A stretch of 64,000 bases of DNA from the NCBI RefSeq assembly GCF_004345615.1, contig NZ_SLWK01000001.1:186001-250000 (forward strand), in the 5' to 3' direction. The DNA is from Natronoflexus pectinivorans (GTDB taxonomy: Bacteria; Bacteroidota; Bacteroidia; Bacteroidales; Marinilabiliaceae). A program made the position numbers and the translations under genes. Below, piece after piece: positions 28,526 through 30,013 of the stretch. The notes beneath the pieces were generated by a model. That model searched no databases. It saw nothing but the letters and a program-made list of their open reading frames with translations, and was not told where the DNA came from. Each line of letters begins with the position of its first letter. The first letter of the stretch is position 1.

Positions 28526-29398
28526 TTACAGAATCATCTTCTCAATCGGAATAATCAATATTCCCTGTGCTCCGTTCTCTTTTAACTGGTCAATCACTTC
28601 CCAGAACTTATCTTCGTTAATTACCGAATGAATTGAACTCCAACCCGCTTCGGCAAGTGGAAGAACCGTAGGACTCTTCATGCCCGGTAAAATATCAACG
28701 ATATTTTTAACCTTTTCATTTGGAGCATTTAAAAGCACATATTTGTTTGAGTTTGCTGCCTGTACGGCATCAAAACGGAAAAGCATCTGCTCCAGAAGTG
28801 CCCGTTTTTCTTCATCAAGATTTTTATTGGCCACTAAAAGCGCTTCAGATTTCATAACCACTGCCACCTCCTTCAGACTGTTGGCAACCAATGTACTGCC
28901 GGAACTAACAATATCAAAAATAGCATCTGCCAAACCAATTCCCGGAGCTATTTCAACAGACCCCGCTATCTCATGTATGTCGGCCTGAATTTTCTTTTCG
29001 GCAAAAAATTTCTTTAGTATTTCAGGATATGAAGTGGCTATTTTCTTTCCATTAAACCAGCCTACTCCGGTGTAATGTTCACTTTTAGGAATGGCAAGGG
29101 ACAAGCGGCATTTACTAAACCCCAGACGCTTAACGATATCCAGCTCGTATCCTTTCTCGGCATATTCATTTTCTCCAACTACTCCCAGGTCTGCCACTCC
29201 GTCAAAAACCGATTGAGGAATATCATCGTCTCTTAAGAAAAGTGCTTCGATGGGAAAACCAGTTGACTGTGCAACCAAACGGCCATTGCCAATATTAAAC
29301 TTAATACCGGATTCCTTCATGAGCCCCATGCTGTCGTCATGAAGTCTTCCCTTTTTCTGAAGTGCAATTCTTAAAGTTGTTTCAATATTCGTTTCCAT
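28526..29398 (-). CDS. hisG: ATP phosphoribosyltransferase, long form
   Basis: This 290-residue enzyme condenses ATP and PRPP, the first and feedback-controlled step of histidine synthesis. It is the long form: a catalytic part (LRIALQKKGRLHDDSM, GVADLGVVGENEY, DIVSSGSTLVANSL) is followed by a C-terminal ACT-like regulatory domain from about residue 215. Long HisG works without HisZ. I chose the ATG at 29398 (METNIETTLR); an upstream ATG at 29428 adds ten residues and would place the start very close to the attenuator hairpin. It is the first gene of the operon, 36 bp after the hairpin. Confidence 0.95.
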   Translation of the reverse strand: METNIETTLRIALQKKGRLHDDSMGLMKESGIKFNIGNGRLVAQSTGFPIEALFLRDDDIPQSVFDGVADLGVVGENEYAEKGYELDIVKRLGFSKCRLSLAIPKSEHYTGVGWFNGKKIATSYPEILKKFFAEKKIQADIHEIAGSVEIAPGIGLADAIFDIVSSGSTLVANSLKEVAVVMKSEALLVANKNLDEEKRALLEQMLFRFDAVQAANSNKYVLLNAPNEKVKNIVDILPGMKSPTVLPLAEAGWSSIHSVINEDKFWEVIDQLKENGAQGILIIPIEKMIL

Positions 29399-29434
29399 AA
29401 CTATATTGTTAGAATTTATATTATACAAAACGCA

Positions 29435-29464
29435 AAAAGGCTTACCACACAGGGTAAGCCTTTT
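29435..29464 (-). terminator. Attenuator terminator of the his operon
   Basis: On the minus strand a 12-bp stem, AAAAGGCTTACC with GGTAAGCCTTTT, has a 6-nt loop and is followed by T. It lies between the leader peptide and hisG. Its 5' arm can pair instead with 29484-29496. Confidence 0.85.
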
Positions 29465-29494
29465 GTTATATTATGCACACAACAAGCCCACCCC

Positions 29495-29542
29495 TTATGA
29501 AAGGAGATGATGATGAGCATTGCTGTGATGAATAAAAATCAT
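29495..29542 (-). CDS. hisL: His operon leader peptide
   Basis: A 15-codon reading frame encodes MIFIHHSNAHHHLLS, with five histidines including HHH at codons 10-12. It starts about 17 nt after the predicted transcription start and ends just before the antiterminator segment. The frame is too short to be found by length filters. It is not homologous in detail to the enterobacterial HisL, but has the same logic. The symbol is used for function, not for proven homology. Confidence 0.85.
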   Translation of the reverse strand: MIFIHHSNAHHHLLS

Positions 29543-29565
29543 ATGGTAAAAGATTATTTACATGA

Positions 29566-29597
29566 CAAAACTATGATATTTTTCTGGTTGATTCAAA
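29566..29597 (-). promoter_or_regulatory. His operon promoter
   Basis: Minus-strand TTTG (29594-29597) and TAGTTTTG (29566-29573) match the Bacteroidota -33 and -7 elements, 20 bp apart. Transcription would begin near 29559, just before the leader peptide ATG. Confidence 0.75.
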
Positions 29598-30013
29598 ATT
29601 TTCACGAAAAAAAAGAGTTTTGTCATAAATTTATCTGTTCAAAAATTTCTTTAGCCCATTGAATGTATTCAGGTCTTTGCTTCATAAGCTTATTAAGTAA
29701 TCAACAGACAAATTGCTATATCTTTTTTTGTATATTCGTATAGACTACCAGACCATTGAGCATTCAAATTCAGTCCTGATTTTAACAGTAATAGTTCGTT
29801 AATCTTTTTTATTAACTTAATTATCAAACGTTTATAAATTTATTGTTGTATTGTTCAATCAGCTGGTAACAAGAAGCTTACTCACATCTAATGTCTAATA
29901 ATCTAATCCCGAGATATTCGGGACTAACGATCTATTGTAACAGGATCCATTCGATGAAGCAAATTCACAAAACCCCTTATCACTATAGGAACAACTAAAT
30001 CATCAAAAAAATC
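29598..30013. other. Gene-free gap between the his promoter and the nucleoside hydrolase
   Basis: These 416 bp are AT-rich. They contain a palindrome at 29907-29923 and short open stretches on the minus strand without start codons or recognisable similarity. No RNA gene was seen. Confidence 0.5.
29907..29923. repeat. Short dispersed palindrome TCCCGAG..TTCGGGA
   Basis: TCCCGAGATATTCGGGA is related to the copy at 17754-17769; both are followed by an A/T-rich YTAR-like context. Confidence 0.5.

Follow-up and report, generated by a model that had tools for sequence, protein, structure and literature searches.

Genes and leader region of the his locus

The window, which refers here to the whole stretch of 64,000 nucleotides of Natronoflexus pectinivorans DNA that was analyzed, carries a row of histidine biosynthesis genes on its minus strand. 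The first structural gene is hisG (29398-28526), coding for ATP phosphoribosyltransferase (TIGR00070, 186.7 bits, above the cut-off); its product is 98% identical to HisG of Alkalitalea saponilacus. It is followed by hisD (28505-27219; histidinol dehydrogenase, TIGR00069, 529.1 bits), hisC (27103-26066; histidinol-phosphate transaminase, TIGR01141, 350.2 bits), an acetyl-esterase-like gene (26047-25142; best NCBIfam match PaeX, under the cut-off) and hisB (25128-23998; bifunctional phosphatase/dehydratase, NF003937, 538.1 bits), which gives the order hisG-hisD-hisC-esterase-hisB. The genes hisH and hisA are found elsewhere on the contig, together with a further His_biosynth gene that is presumably hisF, and the motif CAYCAYCAY is absent from this hisH-hisA stretch (C1:1800-5500, 3.7 kb). 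Since the upstream neighbor of hisG is divergent (30014, plus strand), the terminator described below ends no other gene on the minus strand.

The region ahead of hisG (29597-29434, minus strand) contains, in this order, a TTTG box, 20 nt, TAGTTTTG, a leader ORF, its stop codon, GGGGTGGGCTTGTTGTGT directly after it, and a terminator. The TTTG box (29597-29594) and TAGTTTTG (29573-29566), which has the form TAnnTTTG, correspond to the -33 and -7 elements of what we take to be a Bacteroidota sigma-type promoter, from which transcription would start near 29561-29558. The leader ORF (29542-29495) runs from an ATG at 29542-29540 to a TAA at 29497-29495 and encodes MIFIHHSNAHHHLLS, a peptide of 15 residues with 5 His, whose codons are arranged as 2 + 3. 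Both the promoter and the leader with five His in fifteen residues had been proposed in the original prediction, and both were recovered in the sequence upstream of hisG. When strict criteria were applied (8-35 aa, at least 5 His, at least 25% His), 3 ORFs were found on the two strands of the 64 kb window, among which the hisG leader is the only one starting with ATG.

The RNA downstream of the leader start can adopt three mutually exclusive pairings in addition to the terminator, all in the order that had been anticipated. Segment 1, the putative anti-antiterminator, reads CACAGCAA-U-GCUCA (29527-29514), lies within the leader codons and, in the ribosome-free fold, forms a helix with the UGGGC-UUGUUGUG stretch of segment 2. 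A local hairpin, CUCCUU-UCAU-AAGGGG (29506-29491), spans the end of the leader and part of the stop codon, and its predicted CTCCTT-AAGGGG pairing is indeed obtained by folding (29506-29501 with 29496-29491). Segment 2, the 5' arm of the antiterminator (29494-29477), starts right behind the leader stop codon, whereas segment 3, the 3' arm (29471-29464 and 29460-29451), shares bases with the 5' arm of the terminator. The pairing between the segment at the leader stop and the terminator 5' arm had been announced as 11 bp long; the pairing stands, but its length has to be corrected, as it consists of 10 contiguous pairs (29494-29485 with 29460-29451), including 4 G-U pairs, and, beyond a 3-nt bulge, of 8 more (29484-29477 with 29471-29464), i.e. 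18 in total. The intrinsic terminator (29464-29434) is composed of a 12-bp stem (29464-29435) with a 6-nt loop and a T-run (29438-29434) which overlaps the stem, AAAA being able to pair with four T. The T-run ends 35 nt ahead of the hisG ATG.

Predicted folds at different ribosome positions

The fold of the leader region is more stable than expected (z = -5.21, with 0 of 200 shuffles equally stable), and the folding that had been suggested, here run with the ribosome at successive codons, produced the anticipated switch. In the absence of a ribosome, the predicted structure combines the segment 1:2 pairing with the terminator (-39.7 kcal/mol). With a ribosome at the HHH codons, the free RNA is predicted to fold as antiterminator (-26.9 kcal/mol), even with the full terminator sequence included, and with a ribosome at or just past the stop codon it is predicted to fold as terminator. 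This was quantified in a codon scan as the mean probability with which upstream sequence of the nascent RNA sequesters the terminator 5' arm by pairing. In the window, this value is 0.03 without a ribosome, rises to 0.76-0.88 over the five His codons and falls to 0.00 when the stop codon is reached. After shuffling of the spacer between stop codon and terminator, 13/300 sequences reach 0.88 and 1/300 reaches the energy difference. The features expected of an attenuator are found together in the window: a leader ORF rich in the amino acid of the pathway, a terminator before hisG, an antiterminator according to the predicted folds, and an anti-antiterminator.

Conservation of the leader among relatives

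The comparison with related genomes that had been called for revealed conserved His codons as well as covariation in the alternative stem formed by the antiterminator. A hisG gene was found in 57 of 60 genomes of the same GTDB family, and a His-rich leader precedes it in 52/57 cases; in 50/57 cases a terminator was detected as well with a strict finder. The corresponding rate in dinucleotide shuffles is 0.037, and 3/57 reverse strands gave a leader. Strict His-rich ORFs were found in 42/57 of these upstream regions, compared with 0/57 reverse strands and 0/570 dinucleotide shuffles. All leaderless loci (L142, L144, L145, L147 and L150) belong to one genus, g6, in which five other members do carry the leader; the upstream stretches of L148 and L150 are shortened by contig ends. 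The two leaders for which the strict finder missed a terminator are those of L102 and L148, and a relaxed scan yielded, for 52/52 leaders, a hairpin at least as stable as -8 kcal/mol ahead of a T-rich stretch. The promoter box is conserved too: TAnnTTTG occurs within 75 nt upstream of 48/52 leaders (rate in mononucleotide shuffles 0.057), its distance to the leader start being 18-33 nt. A TTG-type box, loosely defined, was seen 15-24 nt before the -7 box in 47/52, although such a loose pattern is weak evidence alone. Within the family, the leader stop is separated from hisG by 82 to 322 nt.

Among the named genomes, a His-rich leader was present at 39 of the 79 loci at which HisG was found (36 by script and L016, L072 and L075 by eye); the leaderless loci include 15 titled Paludibacter. 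A particular type of leader, with a conserved MRxYRQHSV-type N-terminus, was observed at L019, L040, L057, L066, L067, L068, L070 and L071, where it is accompanied by a terminator. In the folding model, leaders of this type exhibit little or no classical antiterminator switch.

The behavior of the family leaders in the fold test resembles that of the window. For the 50 leaders with a terminator, the mean value is 0.36 without a ribosome; it rises to 0.77 for the best His codon and drops to 0.19 with the ribosome at the stop codon. The difference between His and stop is at least 0.3 in 45/50 leaders vs 33% of 1000 single shuffled spacers, and both the His-vs-stop and the His-vs-none comparisons are passed by 28/50 leaders vs 17% of shuffles. 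The anti-antiterminator is only partly kept, with a difference between His and none of at least 0.3 in 30/50 leaders and a mean in the no-ribosome state, 0.36, which is not close to 0. We prefer the single-shuffle figures for this control; the version using the mean of ten shuffles gives 13/50 in the family and 33/41 in the phylum. In the named genomes, the value at His exceeds that at stop by over 0.2 in 23/32 leaders, the test having been carried out on 32 of 40 leaders after leaving out 8 for which the finder gave no terminator below -9 kcal/mol.

Covariation of the antiterminator and of the terminator

Covariation was assessed on 30 leaders, 25 of them distinct, with L022 and L013 placed by eye; a first set had comprised 28 of the 29 leaders tried, L022 being off the pattern and L013 left out. 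L019, L040, L057, L066-L068, L070, L071, L074 and L075 were left out because of their different terminator sequence. As the rows were chosen by patterns that fix the core columns, the test is fair mainly at the outer pairs. In the 30 rows, the antiterminator helix is paired in 90.0% of cells vs 83.0% in shuffled alignments, its covariation score is 0.331 vs 0.220 (0/500), and 14 cells are changed on both sides vs 4.4 (0/500). At the two outer pairs, which lie outside the terminator, CG, GC, UA, AU, GU and UG are all seen. The number of antiterminator pairs with a double change is not significant (3 vs 2.0 shuffled, 53/500, in the 30 rows; 2 vs 1.8, 416/500, in the 28-row version), and sliding the partners by +1 likewise gives 3 such pairs. 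For the terminator, the share of paired cells is 99.5% (28 rows). In L074 and L075, which represent deeper lineages, the latter titled Melioribacteraceae, the sequence is unrelated, and segments 2, 3 and 4 were seen by eye to change together, the antiterminator and both terminator arms being GUCGG/CCGAC in one and GCCGG/CCGGC in the other.

His-rich leaders in the phylum

In a sample of the phylum, hisG was found in 138/158 genomes. We read 109 upstream regions, that of the window excluded; the 28/137 that were left out all belong to the group whose HisG identity is about 30%. A leader is present at 70/81 loci with a HisG identity of at least 41% and at 2/28 in the group with divergent HisG, and His-rich leaders before hisG extend to other classes of Bacteroidota. 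Leader and terminator occur together at at least 41/81 of the former loci; this is a lower bound, as the finder took the wrong overlapping ORF in L184 and L189, where both elements were recognized by eye. Outside the family, the spacer control discriminates poorly (39/41 real leaders vs 75% of shuffles), a likely reason being that the leader ORF frequently contains segment 2.

Family f46 (L201-L206, L208, L211-L215, L217, L221-L224, L229 and L230), which does not belong to the class of the window, has a His-rich leader at 19/19 sampled hisG genes, and the strict finder detected a terminator in 0/19. In the relaxed scan, in which the hairpin may overlap the leader, -8 kcal/mol or better was reached in 1/19 (L205), with L206 and L212 near, vs 52/52 in the window's family. 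At several f46 loci, e.g. L203 and L214, the scan gave at best a weak hairpin that covers the leader stop and is followed by a T-rich stretch. The relaxed scan therefore weakens the claim that f46 has no terminator, and weak termination may occur at its leaders. The spacer between leader and hisG is poor in G in f46 (0.088 vs 0.184 in 105 others) and has little structure. A helix between the leader start and a segment behind the stop is likely, as the first leader bases pair with that segment better than swapped ones do (permutation p 0.005, 13 representatives), an advantage that about five of 16 loci do not show (L206, L215, L221, L223 and L224). In 8/19 cases, a GTG leader start is located four bases past the TAnnTTTG box.

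Rfam searches and other leaders of the genome

No Rfam family reaches its gathering score in the window, and His_leader, presumably RF00514, the enterobacterial his leader, does not appear when matches on 29390-29700 are listed up to E 5. A weak full-length match to the threonine operon leader RF00506 was obtained (23.5 bits, E 0.022, vs a gathering score of 55 bits); the general shape of an attenuator is common to both, but the codons are His in the window and Thr/Ile in RF00506. A match to the Bacteroides sRNA BTnc231 (RF04180), with 20 bits vs a curated score of 80.4, was judged to be due to chance: this family gave 11 weak matches at E <=0.01 and 0 above the cut-off in 61 genomes, and is not listed for 15 leader loci.

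In the same genome, a short WWW ORF and, after it, a strong terminator (-18.0 kcal/mol) were observed in L282 (G000:C1:66400-68500, minus strand), at about 920-1080 of the reverse complement. The gene behind them is trpE-like, although the protein is partial and its best match, TIGR00564 with 96.6 bits, is under the full-length cut-off. From this arrangement, attenuation is probably used for tryptophan as well in this genome. No comparable leader was found in the stretches upstream of thrA and leuA, of which the leuA stretch begins within other genes and is no test for ilv/leu.

Discussion

The element upstream of hisG is very likely a ribosome-mediated transcription attenuator of hisG-hisD-hisC-hisB, a reading which relies on sequence comparison and modeled folds. 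It is favored because the His codons and the terminator are conserved, the antiterminator covaries, the distance from the promoter box is narrow, and the folds are as expected. RNA polymerase would start near 29560, and a ribosome would begin the leader peptide. When charged tRNA-His is scarce, the ribosome would stall at the His codons and cover segment 1, allowing segments 2 and 3 to pair, so that the terminator would not form and hisG would be transcribed. When tRNA-His is plentiful, the ribosome would reach the stop codon and cover segment 2, and the terminator would form; it would also form when the leader is not translated, through the pairing of segments 1 and 2. We infer that the genes constitute an operon, that the leader is translated, that ribosomes stall on it, that termination occurs in the cell and that expression responds to histidine.

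Three other explanations were considered. A coincidence, in which a His-rich ORF happens to adjoin an unrelated terminator, might be entertained given that CAYCAYCAY is frequent in this genome (466 + 469 matches), and this motif alone was indeed discarded as a leader marker for being unspecific; yet leader and terminator together recur in 50/57 relatives, against a shuffle rate of 0.037 and 3/57 reverse strands, which makes coincidence practically negligible. The conserved His codons (52/57) would also be left unexplained if the element resembled a T-box, with the UGGG of segment 2 reading the CCCA end of tRNA-His (which has C73) and no need for a peptide. In favor of this idea, UGGG is found in the antiterminator strand of the window and of most of its closest relatives. 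Elsewhere, the same columns read UGAG, UAAG, UAGG, UUGG or CGGG, the Rfam matches listed up to E 5 include no T-box, and there appears by eye to be scant space for a specifier stem. We rejected the T-box reading of UGGG, as UGGG is not conserved and no T-box match is listed, and consider such a mechanism highly improbable.

The hairpins could also govern the translation of hisG or the decay of its mRNA, the terminator-like hairpin being non-terminating. The T-run does end 35 nt ahead of the hisG ATG, and termination is a prediction here. Nevertheless, the hairpin has a 12-bp stem with a T-run, 50/57 relatives have such a terminator, and the variable distance between leader stop and hisG (82-322 nt) is better suited to termination than to occlusion of the start site. 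Translational control is thus improbable in our view, if somewhat less so than the two explanations above, and transcription attenuation is retained.

The enterobacterial hisL of E. coli and Salmonella combines a His-rich leader ORF with seven His codons in a run, 1:2, 2:3 and 3:4 alternatives, and a terminator before hisG. The window shares the His-rich ORF, the alternatives, the terminator and the logic; it differs in the His codons, which are split 2 + 3, and in the TTTG/TAnnTTTG promoter. Work by Vitreschak et al. from 2004 reportedly mentions attenuators in Bacteroidetes/Chlorobi. We found no description of a his attenuator in Bacteroidota in the open-licence literature searched. In a 2021 study of F. 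psychrophilum, which belongs to the same phylum, strong clues for leader-peptide attenuation before amino acid biosynthesis operons are presented (PMC9723704); those candidates were inferred from transcriptome and structure, and the word "histidine" is absent from the main text. A study of B. thetaiotaomicron describes sORFs reminiscent of attenuation leaders (PMC7366714), and an article on the his genes of this superphylum names attenuation a single time, in connection with S. enterica and E. coli (PMC8305728). His attenuators of Firmicutes, found by comparison, likewise have His leader peptides upstream of hairpins, although in another phylum, with three to five consecutive His codons just before the attenuator hairpins (PMC9413887).

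In view of the f46 leaders, the His-rich leader might be an ancient sensor, common to the whole phylum, that has changed its output: genomes of the window's class and of the f39 type would use an intrinsic terminator, and f46 would rely on Rho, translation, decay or a weak hairpin at the stop codon. We regard this scenario as rather unlikely.

The original prediction held that a clean attenuator in this phylum deserves attention. The element itself is real, but it represents the common state there, given its presence in 52/57 genomes of the family and at 70/81 loci with a HisG identity of at least 41%, and clues for attenuation had already been reported in F. psychrophilum. The evidence gives good support to an ordinary ribosome-mediated his attenuator, of a known kind, in a phylum that is under-annotated in this respect. 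As no Rfam family picks up the element in the window, a model derived from these leaders could probably serve to annotate many genomes. Our results suggest that a classical ribosome-coupled attenuation system usually precedes hisG in this part of Bacteroidota. These bacteria mostly do without Shine-Dalgarno initiation. If attenuation is usual in them, the leading ribosome would trail RNA polymerase closely enough to steer termination.
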